A stretch of 35,699 bases of DNA, from contig NZ_JAUYGD010000035.1 of NCBI RefSeq assembly GCF_030690725.1, forward strand, positions 1 through 35,699. The letters run 5' to 3'. The position numbers and the translations under genes are program-made. Of the stretch, positions 7,694-15,939 are shown one piece after another. Position 1 is the stretch's first letter. Every line of letters begins with the position of its first letter. The notes under the pieces were generated by a model. It worked only from the letters and a program-made list of their open reading frames with translations. It ran no database searches and was not told where the DNA came from. The DNA is from Pseudomonas sp. (GTDB lineage: Bacteria > Pseudomonadota > Gammaproteobacteria > Pseudomonadales > Pseudomonadaceae).

Positions 7694-8983
7694 ATGCGCG
7701 AAGATTTGAATCAAGGCCTGATCGAGTTCCTCAAGGCCTCGCCAACCCCTTTTCATGCCACCGCCAGCCTGGCACTGCGCCTTGAAGCGGCCGGTTTTCA
7801 ACACCTGGACGAGCGCGCCAGCTGGCACACCGAGTCCGGCGGCCGCTATTACGTGACGCGCAACGACTCCTCGATCATCGCCTTCAAGCTGGGCAAGCGC
7901 GCGCCACTGGAAGGCGGCATTCGCCTGGTTGGCGCGCACACTGACAGCCCGTGCCTGCGGGTCAAACCGCAACCGGAGCTGCAGCAACAGGGCTTTTTCC
8001 AGCTCGGTGTTGAGGTGTACGGCGGCGCATTGCTGGCGCCCTGGTTCGACCGCGACCTGTCGCTGGCCGGCCGGGTGACCTACCGCCGTGACGGCAAGGT
8101 GGAAAGCCAGCTGATCGACTTCCAGAAACCGATTGCGATCATTCCCAACCTGGCCATTCACCTTAACCGTGAAGCCAACCAGGGCTGGGCGATCAACCAG
8201 CAGATCGAGCTGCCGCCAATCCTCGCGCAGCTATCCGGCGATGAGCCGGCCGATTTCCGCGCGCTGATTACCGATCAACTGGCCCGCGAGCACGACTTCA
8301 GCGCCGATGCAGTGCTCGATTACGAACTGAGCTTCTACGACACGCAAAGTGCTGCGGTGATTGGCCTGAATGGCGACTTTATTGCCGGCTCGCGACTGGA
8401 CAACCTGCTGTCCTGCTACGCCGGGCTGCAGGCGCTGCTGGCCGCGCCAGATGAAGAAAGCTGCGTGCTGGTGTGCACCGACCACGAGGAAGTCGGCTCC
8501 TGCTCGGCCTGCGGCGCCGATGGCCCGATGCTCGAACAGGTGCTGCGTCGCGTGCTGCCAGACGGCGACGCCTTCGTCCGTACCATCCAACGCTCTCTGC
8601 TGGTCTCGGCGGACAACGCCCACGGCGTACACCCCAACTATGCCGACAAGCATGACCAGAACCATGGCCCCAAGCTCAACGCCGGCCCGGTGATCAAGAT
8701 CAACAGCAACCAACGCTACGCCACCAACAGCGAAACCGCTGGGTTCTTCCGTCATCTGTGCTTGGAAAATGAAGTACCGGTGCAGAGTTTCGTCACCCGC
8801 AGCGACATGGGTTGTGGCTCGACCATCGGCCCGATCACCGCCAGCCAGCTGGGCGTGCGCACCGTGGACATCGGCCTGCCGACCTTCGCCATGCACTCAA
8901 TCCGCGAACTGGCCGGTAGCCATGACCTGGCGCATCTGGTGAAAGTGCTGACGGCGTTTTACGCCAGCGCCGAGCTGCCGTGA
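7694..8983 (+). CDS. apeB: Aspartyl aminopeptidase ApeB (M18 metallopeptidase)
   Basis: 429 residues, cytoplasmic dizinc peptidase that removes N-terminal acidic residues from peptides. Metal and active-site blocks: [12 protein letters not shown] with His82, [16 protein letters not shown] (about 261-269), [34 protein letters not shown] and the C-terminal FAMHSIRE. The frame is open 42 codons upstream, but ATG 7694 is preferred because GGAG sits 6 bases ahead and the protein then starts [13 protein letters not shown] like the family. It stands alone; the repeat at 8997-9063 follows and may end its transcript. Confidence 0.93.
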
Positions 8984-8996
8984 TCCCGATAAACAG

Positions 8997-9063
8997 GTAG
9001 CCCGGATGCAATCCGGGTGCTGCTTGAGTGGCTCTCGGAATTCCCGGATTTCATCCGGGCTAC
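8997..9063. repeat. Palindromic intergenic repeat
   Basis: Terminal arms GTAGCCCGGATG (8997-9008) and CATCCGGGCTAC (9052-9063) are perfect inverted repeats, with internal CCGGG repeats between. Sits between convergent apeB and gntR and could fold into a strong hairpin. Confidence 0.6.
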
Positions 9064-9073
9064 AGTTTTGCCA

Positions 9074-9138
9074 ACCCATCATCGCGGTGTATCCACTAAT
9101 GCCTTGATGGGTATCGCTTCGCTCGACGCCATCCTACG
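9074..9138. repeat. Second small repeat, ACCCATCA/TGATGGGT
   Basis: Arms 9074-9081 and 9105-9112, followed by a GTATCGCTTCGCTCGACGCC-type string ending ATCCTACG. I recall such strings as recurring intergenic pieces in pseudomonads. Only the small dyad is directly visible. Confidence 0.4.
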
Positions 9139-9156
9139 AGCAGCGGTTGAAGCCCC

Positions 9157-9873
9157 CTACTCCGGTACCTCGACGCTTACATGCAGAGCGTCGTGGCGCC
9201 AGAACTCCAGATCGCAGTCAATCAGTCGGCCATGCTGGTCGCGGTTGATCCGCACGATACGCAGCGCCGGGCTGCCCACCGCAACTTTCAATGCCGACGC
9301 GGCTTCGCTGTGTAACGCCGTGGGCACCATGTCGAAGCGCACTCGGCCGTAATGAATGCCGTATTCGCTGGCATATAGCTCAGTCAGCGAGCGGGTCAGG
9401 TCGAAATCCAGAATGCCGGCAAAGTAATTCGGATTGAGGTAGTGCTCGACGTACAGCACCAGACGGCCGTCGATGCGCCGTGCACGACGGATCTGATAGA
9501 CGCTGGACAGCGCCGGCAAGGCCAGTAGCTGACAGATCTCGGCGCTGGCCGGGATCAGCTTGGCGCTAAGCACTTCGGTGGCCGGCACCCGGCCCTGCTC
9601 GCCGACCATGGCGTGGAAGTGGCTGCGCACCAGCGGGTTGTAGGCCACGCGCGGCGGCGAAACAAACCAGCCGCGACGCTCCTCGCGGTAGATCAGCCCC
9701 TGGGCCTCAAGCTGGCCCAGCGCCTCACGCAGGGTGATGCGCGTGGTATCGAATACCTCGCTGAGCTTACGCTCGGCCGGCAACTGACTTCCTGACGGCA
9801 ACAGGCCGTGTTCGATCTGCTCTTCCAATGCCCGGCATATAGCTGTGACTGCCCGCGGCGCTTCATCGCGCAT
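9157..9873 (-). CDS. GntR family regulator, HutC/UTRA type
   Basis: 238 residues. The N-terminal winged helix (about 8-72) has the GntR pattern LPSGSQLPAERKLSEVFDTTRITLREALGQLEAQGLIYR. The C-terminal UTRA domain (about 95-235) ends RINRDQHGRLIDCDLEFWRHD, the usual effector-binding end. The frame is open 36 codons further, but ATG 9873 has GGAGG eight bases before it and gives a normal GntR N-terminus. It is divergent from the binding-protein operon (10216 onward), and a perfect 12-bp palindrome overlaps its leader. Inference: it represses itself and the operon until it binds the imported compound or a breakdown product, as PhnR-like and similar HutC-type regulators do. Confidence 0.88.
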   Translation of the reverse strand: MRDEAPRAVTAICRALEEQIEHGLLPSGSQLPAERKLSEVFDTTRITLREALGQLEAQGLIYREERRGWFVSPPRVAYNPLVRSHFHAMVGEQGRVPATEVLSAKLIPASAEICQLLALPALSSVYQIRRARRIDGRLVLYVEHYLNPNYFAGILDFDLTRSLTELYASEYGIHYGRVRFDMVPTALHSEAASALKVAVGSPALRIVRINRDQHGRLIDCDLEFWRHDALHVSVEVPE

Positions 9874-9888
9874 CAAGACCTCCAAAAT

Positions 9889-9900
9889 TGGACTAGTCCA
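9889..9900. promoter_or_regulatory. Candidate GntR operator O1 (perfect palindrome)
   Basis: TGGACTAGTCCA is a perfect 12-bp palindrome 16 bases upstream of the gntR start. HutC-type regulators commonly bind TGG/CCA palindromes around a CTAG or TATA core. It shares TG..CTAG.CCA with O2 at 10162-10173. Confidence 0.65.
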
Positions 9901-10113
9901 GCCCCATTTCGGGGCATCAACATGTGAATGCAGCAGTAAAAACCATGTTTCAAGTTTAAGCAGTCTTGATGACCACGCCATGACAACTTTCTTTCAGCGC
10001 CAGTAAAAGCTGATAAAACTTGGGCTGCAGGCCATACATGACTGAATTTATTCATGGTCTACGCTAGTGGTGCGCCAGTTTGTGCAACCCGGCTCGAGCC
10101 GGTAAATGACCAA

Positions 10114-10147
10114 CGTACATAAAACTGTCATTTAACAAGCCTAAATT
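10114..10147 (+). promoter_or_regulatory. Candidate Pho box and -10 for the ABC/phosphatase operon
   Basis: 10114-10131 matches the 18-base PhoB consensus CTGTCATAWAWCTGTCAY at 15 of 18 positions. The second heptamer CTGTCAT (10125-10131) and the AAAA spacer are exact; the three mismatches are all in the first heptamer. Ten bases further is TAAATT (10142-10147), a 4/6 -10 at the spacing expected when PhoB replaces the -35. It is 85 bases before the first gene. Confidence 0.65.
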
Positions 10148-10161
10148 GGCCTGGGTCTTGC

Positions 10162-10173
10162 TGATCTAGACCA
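10162..10173. promoter_or_regulatory. Candidate GntR operator O2
   Basis: TGATCTAGACCA, a 12-bp palindrome with one mismatched pair, lies just downstream of the predicted -10, where a bound repressor would block transcription of the operon. Related to O1 by TG..CTAG.CCA. Confidence 0.6.
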
Positions 10174-10215
10174 GAACTTTTCACTGCACGCACTTCAATC
10201 GCAAAGGAGTTTCCA

Positions 10216-11274
10216 ATGAAACAACTGCTGCTGGCTTCACTGATGGGCTCAGCCATCGCCCTGGCCACCTCGGCCATGGCTGCTGAAACGGACTTGCAAG
10301 CACTGGAAAAGGCCGCGCGCGCTGAAGGCGCGGTGAACAGTGTGGGTATGCCGGACAGCTGGGCCAACTGGAAAGACACCTGGGTTGACCTGAACAAACT
10401 GTATGGCTTGAAGCATATGGATACCGACATGAGCTCGGCCCAGGAAATTGCCAAGTTCGCCGCTGAAAAAGACAACGCCACCGCCGATATCGGCGACGTA
10501 GGCGCAGCCTTTGGCCCCATCGCCGTGCAGCAGGGTGTAACCCAGCCCTATAAGCCGAGCACCTGGGAGCAGATTCCAGCCTGGGCCAAGGACACCGACG
10601 GCCACTGGATGCTCGCCTACACCGGCTCCATCGCCTTTATCGTCAACAAGCAACTGGTCAAGGACATCCCGCGTTCCTGGGCTGACCTGAAAAAGGGCAC
10701 CTACAAAGTCTCTGCCGGCGATGTCAGCACCGCCGCACAAGCTGTAAACGGCGTACTGGCTGCCGCCATCGCCATGGGCGGTAATGAAAGCAACGTGCAA
10801 CCGGCGCTGGATTTCTACGGTGAACTGGCCAAGCAAGGCCGCCTGTCGCTGGCCAACCCAACCATCCAGACCCTGGAAAAAGGCGAAGTGGAAGTGGGCG
10901 TGGTATGGGACTTCAACGGCCTGAGCTACCGCGACCAGATCGACCCAAGCCGCTTCGAAGTGCTGATCCCTTCCGATGGTTCGGTGATCTCCGGCTACAG
11001 CACCATCATCAACAAGTGGGCGAAAAACCCCAACGCGGCCAAACTGGCGCGTGAGTACATCTTGAGCGACGCCGGCCAGATCAACCTGGCCAAAGGCAAC
11101 GCCCGGCCTATCCGCGCCGAGCACCTGACCCTGCCAGCCGAAGTACAAGCCAAGCTGCTGCCGCAGGAGCAATACGCCAAGGTTCAGCCGATCAAGGATG
11201 CTGCTGCCTGGGAAGCCACTTCCAAAGCACTGCCGCGCCTGTGGCAGGAACACGTCATCATCAATATGAACTAA
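10216..11274 (+). CDS. ABC transporter periplasmic substrate-binding protein
   Basis: 352 residues. Signal peptide MKQLLLASLMGSAIALATSA with cleavage after AMA (about residue 22). The mature protein is a two-lobe binding protein of the iron/spermidine/2-aminoethylphosphonate (AfuA/PotD/PhnS-like) class: LEKAARAEGAV near the N-terminus, ADIGDVGAAFGPIAVQQG, WMLAYTGSIAFIVNKQLVKD, and EVEVGVVWDFNGLSYRDQID. AAAGGAG precedes ATG 10216. It is first in a six-gene operon; a hairpin at 11283-11305 separates it from the next gene. The ligand cannot be read from sequence; context (two phosphatase-type enzymes, a Pho box) argues for an organophosphorus compound rather than iron. Confidence 0.9.
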   Translation: MKQLLLASLMGSAIALATSAMAAETDLQALEKAARAEGAVNSVGMPDSWANWKDTWVDLNKLYGLKHMDTDMSSAQEIAKFAAEKDNATADIGDVGAAFGPIAVQQGVTQPYKPSTWEQIPAWAKDTDGHWMLAYTGSIAFIVNKQLVKDIPRSWADLKKGTYKVSAGDVSTAAQAVNGVLAAAIAMGGNESNVQPALDFYGELAKQGRLSLANPTIQTLEKGEVEVGVVWDFNGLSYRDQIDPSRFEVLIPSDGSVISGYSTIINKWAKNPNAAKLAREYILSDAGQINLAKGNARPIRAEHLTLPAEVQAKLLPQEQYAKVQPIKDAAAWEATSKALPRLWQEHVIINMN

Positions 11275-11282
11275 TGCAATCT

Positions 11283-11305
11283 GGCCCCGGATACACTCCG
11301 GGGCC
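11283..11305 (+). terminator. Strong hairpin after the binding-protein gene
   Basis: Perfect 8-bp stem GGCCCCGG (11283-11290) with CCGGGGCC (11298-11305), 7-base loop, no U-tract. Typical of ABC operons where a 3' hairpin protects the binding-protein message so it is made in excess over membrane parts. Confidence 0.6.
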
Positions 11306-11330
11306 GATTCGGTTGCTAAGGCTTTCAATC

Positions 11331-12137
11331 ATGTCGCACAACGTCATCCTCGTGGTTCTGGATGGCTTGAGCTATCAGGTGGCTCAGCATGCGCTGGGGC
11401 ATCTGCAGGCTTACTGCCAGGCTGGACGCGCCGCGCTGTATAAGCTCGACTGTGAACTCCCGGCCCTGTCACGCCCGCTCTATGAAGCGATTCTGACCGG
11501 TGTTGCGCCCATCGACAGCGGCATCGTCAATAACGATGTAGCGCGCCTGTCGACCCAGCGCAGCATGTTCCACTACGCCCGCGACGCTGGGCTGATTACC
11601 GCTGCGGCGGCCTATCACTGGGTCAGCGAGCTGTATAACCGCTCGCCATTTCAGGCGGCGCGCGACCGTCATACGGCAGACGCCAACCTGCCGATTCAGT
11701 ACGGCCATTTCTACTACGCCGACCATTACCCGGATTCGCACCTGTTCGCCGACGCGGAAAGCCTGCGCCTGCGCCATGCGCCCAATCTGCTGCTGGTGCA
11801 CCCGATGAATATCGACGACGCCGGCCACAAGCACGGCCTCGACAGCGCACAGTACCGCAACAGCGCGCGCATGGCCGATGTGCTGCTGGCCGAATATATC
11901 CAGCCCTGGCTCGACGCCGGCTACCAGATTCTGGTGACCGCCGACCACGGCATGAACAACGACCGCAGCCACAACGGCCTGCTGCCGGAAGAACGCGAAG
12001 TACCGCTGCTGGTACTTGGCAGCGCCTTCAGCCTCGACCCCAACGCCCAGCCGAAACAGCTGGAGTTGTGCGGCACGGTCTGTGAACTGCTCGGCGTGGC
12101 CCACGACAAACCTGTCTGCCGGGAGCTTTTATCGTGA
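11331..12137 (+). CDS. Alkaline-phosphatase-superfamily hydrolase, cytoplasmic
   Basis: 268 residues. The frame is open 30 codons earlier, but ATG 11331 is preferred: the protein then begins MSHNVILVVLDG, so the first metal ligand lies in the first strand as usual, with AAGG upstream. Full metal set visible: Asp11 (VVLDG), candidate nucleophile Ser47 (PALSRP), Asp162 and His166 (IDDAGHKHG), Asp205-His206 (TADHGM) and His214 (RSHNG). This is the nucleotide pyrophosphatase/phosphodiesterase and phosphonoacetate hydrolase (PhnA) layout, but with Ser rather than Thr as nucleophile. No signal peptide, so it acts after import. Its stop overlaps the permease start (GTGA). Reaction proposed: hydrolysis of an imported phosphodiester, phosphomonoester or phosphonate. 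The exact substrate is unknown. Confidence 0.85.
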   Translation: MSHNVILVVLDGLSYQVAQHALGHLQAYCQAGRAALYKLDCELPALSRPLYEAILTGVAPIDSGIVNNDVARLSTQRSMFHYARDAGLITAAAAYHWVSELYNRSPFQAARDRHTADANLPIQYGHFYYADHYPDSHLFADAESLRLRHAPNLLLVHPMNIDDAGHKHGLDSAQYRNSARMADVLLAEYIQPWLDAGYQILVTADHGMNNDRSHNGLLPEEREVPLLVLGSAFSLDPNAQPKQLELCGTVCELLGVAHDKPVCRELLS

Positions 12138-12976
12138 TACCTGCCCTGCGCGGCAAATGGCTGGCACTGCTGTGCCTGCTGCCCTTTGCCCTGTTCTTTA
12201 TCGCTTTTCAGATCGCCCCGCTGCTCTGGGTGGCCAGCAACAGCCTACACACCACCGAGGGCTGGGGCCTGGGCAATTTCCAGCAGGCCTTCGCCTCGCC
12301 GTTCTACCGTCAGGCCATGCGTCACAGCCTGGAAGTGGCGTTCTGGTCGAGCCTGATCGGCATCAGCATCGCCATTCTCGGCAGCTACTCGCTGCGTCAG
12401 GTTGATAGCCGGCTGCGCGACTTCGTCATGGCGTTTTCCAACATGACCAGCAACTTCTCCGGGGTGCCGCTGGCCTTCGCCTTTATCATCCTGTTGGGGT
12501 TTAACGGCGCACTGACCATCCTGCTCAAGCAGGCCGGGATCATCGAGGATTTCAACCTCTATTCGAAAACCGGCCTGATCGTGCTCTACACCTACTTCCA
12601 GATTCCCCTGGGTGTGCTGCTGATCTACCCGGCCTTCGACGCCCTGCGTGAAGACTGGCGCGAATCGGCCGAGTTACTCGGCGCAAGCAACTGGCAGTTC
12701 TGGCGGCATATCGGCTTACCGGTACTGACCCCCGCGCTGCTCGGCACCTTCGTGATTCTGCTGGCCAACGCCCTTGGTGCCTACGCCACGGTGTATGCGC
12801 TGACCACGGGCAACTTCAATATCCTGCCGATTCGGATTGCCGCCATGGTTTCCGGCGACATCTTCCTCGACCCGAATATGGCCAGTGCCCTGGCGATGAT
12901 TCTGGTTGGCCTGATGACCCTGATCACCATCGTTCACCAATGGCTGCTGCGCCGGAGCTACCATGTCCCACGCTGA
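12134..12976 (+). CDS. ABC transporter permease 1
   Basis: 280 residues, start codon GTG at 12134 inside the preceding stop. About six membrane spans; the first is at about 11-31 (LCLLPFALFFIAFQIAPLLWV). The cytoplasmic EAA loop that docks on the ATPase is visible as DALREDWRESAELLGASNWQFWRHIGLPVLTPAL (about 168-201). It pairs with permease 2, whose start overlaps its end by 14 bases. It resembles the spermidine/2-aminoethylphosphonate-type permease I group. Confidence 0.9.
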   Translation: MIPALRGKWLALLCLLPFALFFIAFQIAPLLWVASNSLHTTEGWGLGNFQQAFASPFYRQAMRHSLEVAFWSSLIGISIAILGSYSLRQVDSRLRDFVMAFSNMTSNFSGVPLAFAFIILLGFNGALTILLKQAGIIEDFNLYSKTGLIVLYTYFQIPLGVLLIYPAFDALREDWRESAELLGASNWQFWRHIGLPVLTPALLGTFVILLANALGAYATVYALTTGNFNILPIRIAAMVSGDIFLDPNMASALAMILVGLMTLITIVHQWLLRRSYHVPR

Positions 12977-13757
12977 AAAACGCTCGCCGCTGTTCCACCA
13001 GTTGGTGGTCTACAGCCTGCTGCTGATCCTGTTGCTACCGCTGCTCGGCACCCTGCTCTACTCGTTCTCCACCAGCTGGTCGGCCAGCGTGCTACCCAGC
13101 GGGCTGACCTTCAAGTGGTACCTGGCGCTGTGGAGCGATGCGCGCTTTCTCGCCGCGTTTGGCCGCTCACTGCTGGTCTGCTTGGCGGCGCTAGCGCTGT
13201 CATTGGTGCTGATTCTGCCGCTGCTGTTTGTGGTCAGTTATCACTTCCCCAAGCTCGATGCGGTGATGAACGTGCTGATCCTGCTGCCGTTCGCCATCCC
13301 GCCGGTGGTGTCCTCGGTCGGCTTGATGCAGCTGTTCGCCGGCGGCCCGCTGCCGATCCTCGGTACGCCGTGGATTCTGATTGGCTGCTTCTTCACCATC
13401 GCCCTGCCGTTTATGTACCGGGCCATCAGTAACAACCTGCAGGCGATCAACCTGCGCGACCTGATGGACGCCGCCCACCTGCTCGGCGCCAGCACCTGGC
13501 GCGCGGCCTTTATGGTGGTGCTGCCCAACCTGCGCAAGGGCTTGATGGTCTCGGTGTTTCTCTCCTTCAGCTTCCTGTTCGGTGAGTTCGTGTTCGCCAA
13601 CCTGCTGGTCGGCAGCCGCTATGAAACCCTGCAGGTGTACCTCTACAACATGCGCAACGACAGCGGCCACTTCACCAGCGCCCTGGTGATTTCCTACTTC
13701 CTGTTCGTGCTGCTGATGACCTGGGCGGCCAACCGCCTGAATAAGGACAAGTCATGA
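12963..13757 (+). CDS. ABC transporter permease 2
   Basis: 264 residues. About six membrane spans. EAA loop LMDAAHLLGASTWRAAFMVVLPNLRKGL (about 167-194). It starts inside the 3' end of permease 1 and ends in an ATGA overlap with the ATPase gene, so the transporter parts are translationally coupled. Belongs to the PotC-like permease II group. It forms the membrane channel together with permease 1. Confidence 0.9.
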   Translation: MSHAEKRSPLFHQLVVYSLLLILLLPLLGTLLYSFSTSWSASVLPSGLTFKWYLALWSDARFLAAFGRSLLVCLAALALSLVLILPLLFVVSYHFPKLDAVMNVLILLPFAIPPVVSSVGLMQLFAGGPLPILGTPWILIGCFFTIALPFMYRAISNNLQAINLRDLMDAAHLLGASTWRAAFMVVLPNLRKGLMVSVFLSFSFLFGEFVFANLLVGSRYETLQVYLYNMRNDSGHFTSALVISYFLFVLLMTWAANRLNKDKS

Positions 13758-14743
13758 GTTATTTGAGTATTCAAGGCCTGCACAAGAGCTACGGCGATAC
13801 CGCGATCTTCAGCGATATCAACTGCGAGATCGCCAAGGGCGAATTCATCACCCTGCTCGGCCCCTCTGGCTGCGGCAAATCCACCCTGCTGCGCTGCATC
13901 GCCGGTCTAACTGGAGTGAATGGCGGGCAGATTCTGCTCGACGGTGAGGACCTGGTGCCCGTAGCCCCGCAAAAACGCGGCATCGGCATGGTGTTCCAGA
14001 GCTACGCGCTGTTCCCCAATATGACCGTGCAACAGAACGTCGCCTTTGGCCTGCGCATGCAGAAGGTCAAGGGCAGCGAAGCCGAACAGCGGGTCAAGGA
14101 AGTGCTGGAGCTGGTTGAGCTGAATGACTTCGCCGGCCGTTACCCGCAGCAACTGTCCGGTGGCCAGTGCCAACGCGTGGCTCTGGCCCGCTCGCTGGTC
14201 ACCCGCCCGCGCCTGCTGCTGCTCGATGAGCCACTGTCGGCGCTGGATGCGCGGATTCGCAAGCACCTGCGCGAGCAGATCCGCAGCATCCAGCAGGAGC
14301 TGGGCCTGACCACCATCTTCGTTACCCATGATCAGGAAGAAGCGCTGGTCATGAGCGACCGTATCTTCCTGATGAACGCCGGCAAGATTGTGCAGAGCGG
14401 CGACGCGGAAACCCTCTACACCGCCCCGGCCGATGCCTTTGCCGCCGGTTTTATCGGCAACTACAACCTGCTCGACGCCGATGCCGCCAGCCGCCTGCTG
14501 CTGCGTCCGGTCAACAGCCGCGTGGCGATCCGTCCGGAGGCCATCCAGATTGGCGCCCAGGGCAGCATCGAAGGGCAGATCCGCAGCCATCGTCTGCTCG
14601 GCAACGTAATCCGTTACCGCATCGAGGCGCGCGGCGTCGAACTGCTGGTGGACGTGCTCAACCGCTCCCCGGCGGATCTGCACGCCAGCGGGCAGCGCAT
14701 CAACCTGAACATTGAAGACAACGCAATCTGTGAGGTGGCCTGA
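13754..14743 (+). CDS. ABC transporter ATP-binding protein
   Basis: 329 residues. Walker A GPSGCGKST (36-44), Q-loop Gln82 (MVFQSYALFPNM), signature LSGGQ (134-138), Walker B LLLLDEP (154-160), D-loop SALD and switch His192 (FVTHDQEEAL). The C-terminal part after about 240 is a TOBE-like regulatory domain, here rather short. Family: PotA/FbpC/PhnT-type importers. The start overlaps permease 2 (ATGA) and the end overlaps the HAD gene (TGATG). Confidence 0.93.
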   Translation: MSYLSIQGLHKSYGDTAIFSDINCEIAKGEFITLLGPSGCGKSTLLRCIAGLTGVNGGQILLDGEDLVPVAPQKRGIGMVFQSYALFPNMTVQQNVAFGLRMQKVKGSEAEQRVKEVLELVELNDFAGRYPQQLSGGQCQRVALARSLVTRPRLLLLDEPLSALDARIRKHLREQIRSIQQELGLTTIFVTHDQEEALVMSDRIFLMNAGKIVQSGDAETLYTAPADAFAAGFIGNYNLLDADAASRLLLRPVNSRVAIRPEAIQIGAQGSIEGQIRSHRLLGNVIRYRIEARGVELLVDVLNRSPADLHASGQRINLNIEDNAICEVA

Positions 14744-15396
14744 TGGCCCTGGCAATTTTCGACCTGGACGAAACCCTAATCGGCGGTGACTGCGCCAGCC
14801 TGTGGACCCAGGAAATGGTCAAACTCGGCTGGGCCGACGCCGACAGTTTTATCGCCCATGAGCAGGAGCTGATGCGCCAATACGCCGCCGGCAGCCTGGC
14901 CATGGAAGACTATATGGCCTTTACCCTGTCGCCCCTGGTGGGCCGCACGCCGGAGGAAGTCGCCCACGTGGTCGAGCCCTTTGTTGAAGACGTGATCGAG
15001 CCGATTTTCTACAGCGACGCCACCCGCTGCCTGGCCAACCACCGCGCGGCCGGTGACCGGGTGCTGGTGATTTCCGCCTCGGCGCATTTTCTGGTCAGCG
15101 CTGTCGCCGCACGCTTGAAGATCGAGGAAGTGCTGGCCATCGACCTGGAAGTTCAACACGGCCACTACAGCGGCCGTACCCAGGGCGTGATGACCTACCG
15201 CGAAGGTAAGGTCACGCGCCTGCGTGATTGGCTGCAAGAGCACGGCGAAGTTCTCGACGGCGCCTACTTCTACTCCGACTCACGCAACGACCTGCCGCTG
15301 CTGCAGGTGGTCGACAAGCCCTATGTGGTCAACCCCGACCCCACTCTGCTTGCACACGCGCAACAGGCCGGCTGGCCGATTCTAAGCTGGCGCTGA
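14743..15396 (+). CDS. HAD-IB family phosphatase
   Basis: 217 residues. Motif I FDLDETL with nucleophile Asp7 and acid Asp9; motif II VLVISAS; a Lys in REGKVTRL; motif III YSDSRNDLPLL. The inserted helical cap between motifs I and II is of the C1 type seen in SerB-like and histidinol-phosphatase-like HAD-IB proteins. It starts at the last base of the ATPase stop and is the final gene before a strong terminator. Inference: it removes phosphate from a phosphomonoester made by the upstream hydrolase or taken up by the transporter. A phosphocholine-, phosphoethanolamine- or glycerol-phosphate-like substrate is possible but not shown. Confidence 0.88.
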   Translation: MALAIFDLDETLIGGDCASLWTQEMVKLGWADADSFIAHEQELMRQYAAGSLAMEDYMAFTLSPLVGRTPEEVAHVVEPFVEDVIEPIFYSDATRCLANHRAAGDRVLVISASAHFLVSAVAARLKIEEVLAIDLEVQHGHYSGRTQGVMTYREGKVTRLRDWLQEHGEVLDGAYFYSDSRNDLPLLQVVDKPYVVNPDPTLLAHAQQAGWPILSWR

Positions 15397-15504: not shown

Positions 15505-15939
15505 ATGAACCTTTACCGTCACCCGCCGGCTGCGGCCGCCAAGGCGTTGCTGGCCGCTGCCGGACTGCCAACAGCCGACCTTGCAGCCGAACACTTCGCG
15601 CACTTTATCGCCACCGGCCCGACGCACGCTCCCGAAGCGCTGATTGGCCTGCAGCCTTATGGCGAGGTGGCGCTGCTGCGCTCACTGGTGGTCAGCCCCG
15701 AAGCGCGCGGCAAGGGTTATGGCAGCGCGCTGGTTGCCGAGATAGAAGCCTATGCACAGCAACTCGGCGTACGCGAGCTGTACCTGCTGACCAACACTGC
15801 CGAAGCCTTCTTCGGCCGCCGTGGTTACAGCAGCGTCGAGCGAGCCGACGTGCCTGAAGTGATTCGCCAGACAGCCGAATTCTCCAGCCTCTGCCCTGCC
15901 ACTGCGGTGTGTATGCACAAGCGGATCGAGGCGCGCTGA
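15505..15939 (+). CDS. arsN2: GNAT acetyltransferase, ArsN2-like
   Basis: 144 residues. Blocks LLAAAGLPTADL, ALIGLQPYGEVALLRSLVVSPEARGKGYGSALV (acetyl-CoA binding RGKGYG), LYLLTNTAEAFFGRRGY and AEFSSLCPATAVCMHK match the ArsN2 family linked to arsenic resistance. In that family the enzyme is thought to acetylate an arsenic-containing amino acid such as arsinothricin, but many relatives lie outside ars operons. No other ars gene is near. ATG 15505 is the family start; the frame is open upstream. The end overlaps the ATPase gene by one base. Symbol is by similarity only. Confidence 0.75.
   Translation: MNLYRHPPAAAAKALLAAAGLPTADLAAEHFAHFIATGPTHAPEALIGLQPYGEVALLRSLVVSPEARGKGYGSALVAEIEAYAQQLGVRELYLLTNTAEAFFGRRGYSSVERADVPEVIRQTAEFSSLCPATAVCMHKRIEAR

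Follow-up and report, generated by a model that had tools for sequence, protein, structure and literature searches.

The window analysed here is a 35,699-nucleotide stretch from a Pseudomonas sp. (assembly GCF_030690725.1, contig NZ_JAUYGD010000035.1; genome of 4.67 Mb in 92 contigs), and our subject is a locus at positions 9157-15396 in which a minus-strand GntR/UTRA regulator gene stands divergent to six plus-strand genes, encoding a periplasmic binding protein, a hydrolase of the alkaline phosphatase superfamily with a predicted NPP fold, two permeases and an ATPase of an ABC importer, and a HAD phosphatase. We consider it about an even chance that the importer would bring an intact small organic phosphodiester into the cytoplasm, where the NPP-fold enzyme would cut it to a phosphomonoester and the HAD-IB phosphatase would hydrolyse the monoester to free phosphate. 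PhoB would open the divergent promoter at low phosphate, and the PhnR-like repressor would quit its two operators once the imported compound or a breakdown product sits in the UTRA domain. Sequence and comparison establish which genes are present and how they are ordered, the two operators, the recurrence of Pho boxes in relatives, and a predicted NPP fold that holds a complete two-metal site; by type, the locus belongs with ABC importers that have cytoplasmic hydrolases of their own, and no new category is called for.

An original prediction, made from the letters of the window alone, had named the same seven genes, and gene calls and family profiles confirmed their places and families. It had also proposed organophosphorus import followed by cytoplasmic hydrolysis, a reading that agrees with the genes present, with an active site of NPP type, with a regulator resembling PhnR, and with the sodium/phosphate (Na/Pi) transporter or PHP-domain partners found in some relatives.

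The two hydrolases and the importer

The hydrolase gene (11331-12137, plus strand) starts at 11331 and encodes 268 residues, 248 of which are covered by the predicted NPP fold. D11, D162, H166, D205, H206 and H214, which we take to be the ligands of the two metals, are invariant in 31 sequences, as is N68, presumably the active-site Asn. The position of the nucleophile is occupied by an equally invariant Ser47, which the profile alignment pairs with the Thr of the NPP motif, so that a Thr is not found there. In searches with the hydrolase sequence profile the NPPs ranked first (1.9e-10), with PhoK (7.7e-5) and PafA (3.2e-4) lower; we infer that the enzyme favours diesters. That this first enzyme lacks a signal peptide, as originally predicted, is supported by the place of the invariant Asp11, which follows directly on the fold's first strand, and sequence and comparison leave neither hydrolase room for such a peptide.

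The HAD gene (14743-15396, plus strand) encodes a paralogue of the Pseudomonas HAD-type histidinol-phosphatase that passes general HAD-IB models only (TIGR01490, 177.7 bits against a cut-off of 98.3). On the histidinol-phosphatase model NF052360 it scores 234.3, under the cut-off of 280, whereas the genome's own histidinol-phosphatase (contig C1, 123174-123821) scores 355.4, over the cut-off. Residues D7, D9, K156, D179 and D183 are invariant in 16 HAD sequences, the genome's histidinol-phosphatase among them. The two hydrolases would presumably work in series.

The binding protein (10216-11274, plus strand; SBP_bac_6, PF13343 at 98.7 bits) has an N-terminal signal-like sequence and matches the solved chain 5t1p with an E value of 8.7e-150; the closest named match of 5t1p is from Campylobacter jejuni (97%). 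Its family occurs in Campylobacter jejuni, Pasteurella, Dickeya and Pantoea, and when the Pantoea protein was run against the class genomes at a strict limit of 1e-70, a match was found in the window's genome alone (1 of 369). The predicted structure of the binding protein, built on only 7 close rows, was unreliable, with a predicted local distance difference test (pLDDT) score of 34. In the proposed scheme the protein would recognise a phosphorus compound. A binding protein 70% identical to that of the window is encoded at 8965-9981 of a linear Streptomyces avidinii plasmid; the annotation listed around it has no importer genes, and transfer is possible.

The importer is completed on the plus strand by permease 1 (12134-12976, PF00528), permease 2 (12963-13757, PF00528) and an ATPase with a TOBE domain (13754-14743, PF00005 and PF08402). 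The hydrolase and permease 1 genes overlap by 4 nt, the two permease genes by 14 nt, permease 2 and the ATPase by 4 nt, and the ATPase and the HAD gene by 1 nt, so all four of the overlaps originally described at the last four junctions are present in the window.

Conservation of the operon and its changing partners

Among the genomes sampled, the hydrolase occurs in 177 of 298 from the same family (E ≤1e-20) and in 41 of 398 from the phylum (E ≤1e-15). Of 584 relatives found, the gene order was judged on the 80 closest; of the named species, Pseudomonas peli (98%) and P. guineae (97%) have the nearest hydrolases. All seven genes stand in the same order in 73 of these loci, the remaining 7 being loci of less than 15 kb; among loci of at least 15 kb, all of them close relatives, the order is complete in 67 of 67. 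The retention of gene order exceeds chance, though the loci are closely related. The overlap between hydrolase and permease 1 recurs in 63 of 65 long named loci (two more have no placeable start), that between the permeases in 67/67, and that between permease 2 and the ATPase in 57/67. The ATPase and HAD genes overlap in 23/67, and this last overlap is therefore no general feature.

A further 24 loci were added, chosen because they are divergent or taken from plasmid records. Ten of them carry the seven genes, two lack the HAD gene alone (L149 and L155), one has the five core genes (L173), one has no match for the hydrolase, ATPase or regulator (L176), and in ten the hydrolase stands in other surroundings. 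An Na/Pi transporter gene with a PhoU domain follows the operon in L149 and L150 and lies beside the hydrolase in L151. In two of the genomes (G659 and G469) the Na/Pi gene near the hydrolase is the sole PF02690 gene found; a PF02690 gene is present somewhere in 9 of the 10 genomes searched, so it is the adjacency and not the presence of the gene that counts as evidence, and the three genomes with adjacency belong to one family. In L157 the hydrolase-HAD pair adjoins a peptide-type ABC importer instead, and in L155 an ion-channel gene is the neighbour where the HAD gene is absent. To our reading, these exchanged partners may share the theme of an imported compound and released phosphate. A sub-family of hydrolases with 30% identity stands beside a peptide-type binding protein and an ABC ATPase in two loci of other Pseudomonadota (L163 and L165), possibly as a parallel import-then-hydrolyse system, and the incompletely annotated neighbours in L159, L160, L161 and L164 gave no clue to the substrate. 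The locus without hydrolase, L176 from plasmid 1 of P. aeruginosa RW109, is a rearranged form in which the binding protein and two permeases stand next to an aralkylamine dehydrogenase cluster and the HAD gene is displaced to beside the M18 gene.

In the window the locus is flanked by an M18 aminopeptidase gene on one side and an ArsN2-like acetyltransferase gene on the other. The latter, a GNAT gene directly after the operon (15508-15939), scores 151.7 bits against a cut-off of 125 on the model for ArsN2, an arsenic-resistance acetyltransferase.

A P. aeruginosa plasmid record with chromosome-like genes shows minCDE, rluA, M18 and GNAT genes together with the UTRA regulator, binding protein, hydrolase, permeases, ATPase and HAD phosphatase. 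Taking minC to be PA3243, we count the stretch as PA3243 to PA3255, with the binding protein as PA3250. In P. aeruginosa (L172, 6191-6742) the regulator gene is followed on its own strand by one for a GNAT acetyltransferase; the window has none at that place. We also take the C. jejuni genes cj0727-cj0732 to be this operon, an assumption that includes the identity of cj0730. A membership of Cj0727-Cj0733 in the PhosR regulon, reportedly listed by Wosten 2006, is not confirmed in passages of PMC3197622, PMC6250842, PMC3749233 and PMC9449129. The C. jejuni genes are termed an operon without assigned function, with cj0730 listed among iron-acquisition genes, in a passage of PMC7176700, and Cj0732 increased together with PhoX according to an excerpt of PMC11202532.

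The gene context of a more distant form was taken from one Enterococcus record, a genus that contributed 179 of the 201 records of a plasmid search. This Enterococcus faecium plasmid carries the five core genes and a divergent PHP-domain gene, with no HAD match within the stretch fetched. The PHP gene just exceeds the cut-off of NF005597, a 'hypothetical protein' family (304.8 against 303), and its likeness to HisJ-type histidinol-phosphatases lies below the cut-offs. Among 120 listed of 1632 relatives of the Enterococcus hydrolase are those of Neobacillus, Paenibacillus, Brevibacillus and Vagococcus, and a viral scan gave none.

Public genomes hold many copies of the operon, annotated gene by gene and not as a unit; the public names include 'putative spermidine/putrescine transport'. 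Searches of the literature by P. aeruginosa and C. jejuni locus tags and by subject, which covered mostly titles and abstract openings, brought up no functional characterisation. The original description as an undescribed system therefore stands for the function, within the literature searched, and falls for the gene set.

As substrate, a glycerophospho head group such as glycerophosphoethanolamine may be put forward as the leading, though weakly supported, candidate, because the HAD partner here and the PHP partner on the one Enterococcus plasmid both belong to lineages in which histidinol-phosphatases, enzymes for an amino-alcohol phosphate, occur, and because of the similarity of the hydrolase to ENPP6. 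More tentatively still than the diester scheme as such, and with a good deal of doubt, the operon might be a widespread, horizontally moving route in which the intact glycerophospho head group is imported and cut by a minimal Ser-type cytoplasmic NPP. The amino-alcohol phosphate left over would then go to a phosphatase that differs between lineages (HAD in Pseudomonas but PHP in Enterococcus), or a dedicated Na/Pi transporter would move the phosphate set free. Lipid head groups belong to the organic phosphorus compounds that are common in soil, water and hosts. If they were imported whole, the operon would offer a genetic handle on the competition for phosphorus of Pseudomonas and gut bacteria; an import-first route would then span from Pseudomonas, probably through Campylobacter, to Enterococcus, alongside the classic periplasmic or extracellular cleavage, and this would account for an operon that has long gone without a name in P. 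aeruginosa and probably in C. jejuni. The alkaline phosphatase superfamily would gain, in this hydrolase, a small member with a single domain and a Ser in a diesterase-like site, which would inform the divergence of monoesterases and diesterases.

Regulator, operators and Pho boxes

The regulator gene (9157-9873, minus strand) encodes a protein of PhnR/PhnF type with UTRA and GntR domains. Its presence, strand and family are as originally predicted, whereas the start of its open reading frame had been placed at 9981. The start is probably at 9873, because a GGAGG precedes the ATG there, regulators of 238 residues, the length of this product, occur in relatives (L060, L061, L116 and L168), and the operator palindrome at 9889-9900 falls inside the longer reading frame that extends to 9981. 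On the PhnR model TIGR03337 the window regulator scores 285.3 and that of P. aeruginosa 282.5 bits, both below the cut-off of 296.75. In an excerpt of PMC4918961 the effector pocket of this family is described for NagR with sugar phosphates and for PhnF with a sulphate ion, and a reference title there terms the M. smegmatis PhnF a regulator of phosphate transport; such binding fits, by analogy, the proposed de-repression by the imported compound or its product. For PA3249, the P. aeruginosa regulator, a DNA motif and an electrophoretic mobility shift assay on the amrZ promoter are reported in an excerpt of PMC8041468.

Two putative operators frame the divergent promoter region. Copy 1, TGGACTAGTCCA (9889-9900), is a perfect palindrome just upstream of the ribosome site of the regulator gene, and copy 2, TGATCTAGACCA (10162-10173), ends 42 nt before the start of the binding-protein gene. 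In most loci scanned, TGGACTAGWCCA precedes the regulator gene and TGAYCTAGACCA the binding-protein gene, and the position of copy 2 recurs too. The statistics were taken over 25 loci picked for divergence, the window included, against dinucleotide shuffles that leave the relatedness of the loci in place. The operator TGGNCTAGNCCA is perfect in 18/25 and has at most one mismatch in 24/25, where the shuffles gave 0.00 and 0.15, respectively, and a scrambled motif 0/25 at both levels. The pattern TGGWCTAGWCCA occurs at two places in the genome, this locus and a perfect site on contig C2 (15696-15707; L193, 9697-9708) that ends 16 nt ahead of the ATG with which an 'inactivated HAD' gene of PcrP/PA2803 type begins (NF053741, 286 bits against 240). 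The regulator may have a second target there, or the match may be due to chance; we treat it only as a lead, since about one chance match is expected genome-wide by our estimate and the reversed pattern gives three.

For the Pho box we scanned with CTGTCATnnnnCTGTCAT, which we take to be the consensus. It was found with at most two mismatches in 15/25 loci (shuffles 0.03, reversed motif 0/25), with at most three in 21/25 (shuffles 0.75, reversed motif 4/25), and without mismatch in an Aeromonas locus (L175). The window has one Pho-box-like site toward the regulator (9969-9986, minus strand), at a place where many relatives hold boxes with one or two mismatches, and one toward the operon, CGTACATAAAACTGTCAT (10114-10131, plus strand), in a position where such sites recur in most Pseudomonas relatives, mostly with 2-4 mismatches. 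A promoter scan found no sigma-70-like site.

The proposed control by phosphate starvation draws support from the recurrent boxes in relatives and from PA3250, which an excerpt of PMC4899797 counts among the 36 proteins that it names for the exoproteome of PAO1 under phosphate starvation. Two points limit this support. The window's own boxes are weak, each with 3 mismatches of 14, and the exoproteome gives expression of PA3250 and not induction, because the rich-medium profiles are not taken further in that excerpt.

Alternative substrates and likeness to known systems

Three other explanations were weighed against diester import. A scavenger of the AfuABC kind, importing sugar phosphates or other monoesters for two phosphatases of different specificity working in parallel, is unlikely: its solved relatives are distant from the binding protein (E values of 6e-8 and 3.5e-6), and the hydrolase profile places the NPPs above the monoesterases PhoK and PafA. 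We consider it very unlikely that the importer serves iron, sulphate or polyamine with the hydrolases as passengers. Iron and sulphate binders do occur among the weak relatives of the binding protein, and the public names and the listing of cj0730 mentioned above point the same way, but the hydrolase gene lies within the operon and keeps its overlap with the permease gene, and the Pho boxes, the PhnR-like regulator and the Na/Pi neighbours argue for phosphorus.

It is also quite unlikely that the system imports an aminophosphonate or phosphonate ester on which the NPP-fold enzyme acts in the manner of phosphonoacetate hydrolase or of a phosphonate monoesterase, leaving its product to the HAD enzyme. 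The regulator is nearest to PhnR/PhnF, the ATPase to PhnT2, permease 2 to PhnV, and the binding protein is weakly PhnS-like; 4r6y, a putative 2-aminoethylphosphonate-binding protein, is among its solved relatives, and the hydrolase profile also matches phosphonoacetate hydrolase (1ei6, 4.5e-8). All Phn scores nevertheless lie below the curated cut-offs, with the binding protein at 49.8 against 395.3 bits for PhnS and 41.4 against 392.75 for PhnS2, permease 2 at 81.3 against 358.7 for PhnV, the ATPase at 378.3 against 457.7 for PhnT2, and the hydrolase, far under, at 18.8 against 407.55 for PhnA (TIGR02335). Among loci of this type, the window's operon was the one searched for phnW, phnX and phnY, and none of them is among its genes; in the genome, phnX exceeds its cut-off on contig C69 only. 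There (L194) it stands with phnW and a gene for an MFS transporter related to PgtP/GlpT, beside a divergent LysR-like gene start, by sequence a separate 2-aminoethylphosphonate operon. With phnX and phnW on that contig and the histidinol-phosphatase on C1, neither 2-aminoethylphosphonate use nor histidine synthesis should therefore need the operon studied here.

The binding protein, permeases, ATPase, regulator and hydrolase all miss the NCBIfam cut-offs of their nearest named families; for the ATPase this includes the UgpC-subfamily model NF008653 (298.5 against 432 bits). Because of these scores and the location of phnX and phnW, the operon cannot be placed in PhnSTUV/PhnWX or Ugp, and the C-P lyase genes phnG-phnM are absent from the operon, to which the search for them was confined. 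The original failure to match C-P lyase, PhnSTUV/PhnWX or UgpBAEC therefore holds.

Returning to the proposed diester route, each part resembles a known system without being identical to it. With the PhnSTUV and AepXVW importers of 2-aminoethylphosphonate the operon shares an SBP_bac_6 binding protein, permeases and a PhnT-like ATPase; it differs in subunits under the PhnS/T/U/V cut-offs, in lacking phnWX and in having two hydrolases of its own. AepX, PhoBR-dependent in P. putida BIRD-1 (excerpt of PMC8316502), has PF13343 in common with the binding protein, a likeness at the level of the domain. AfuABC, a once-predicted iron binder that binds a phosphorylated metabolite (excerpt of PMC4546632), is a solved but distant relative, likened by sequence and not by gene neighbourhood. 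The regulator shares its domains and a palindromic operator with the PhnF/PhnR repressors, scoring just under the PhnR cut-off, and the HAD enzyme belongs to the family of the Pseudomonas histidinol-phosphatase, with about 42% identity to the genome's copy, although it misses the NF052360 cut-off. With the NPPs (Xac NPP, ENPP6 and ENPP7) the hydrolase has in common the fold, the two-metal ligands and an Asn near the nucleophile; it differs in its minimal 268-residue form, its predicted cytoplasmic location, a Ser in place of Thr and an identity of about 20%.

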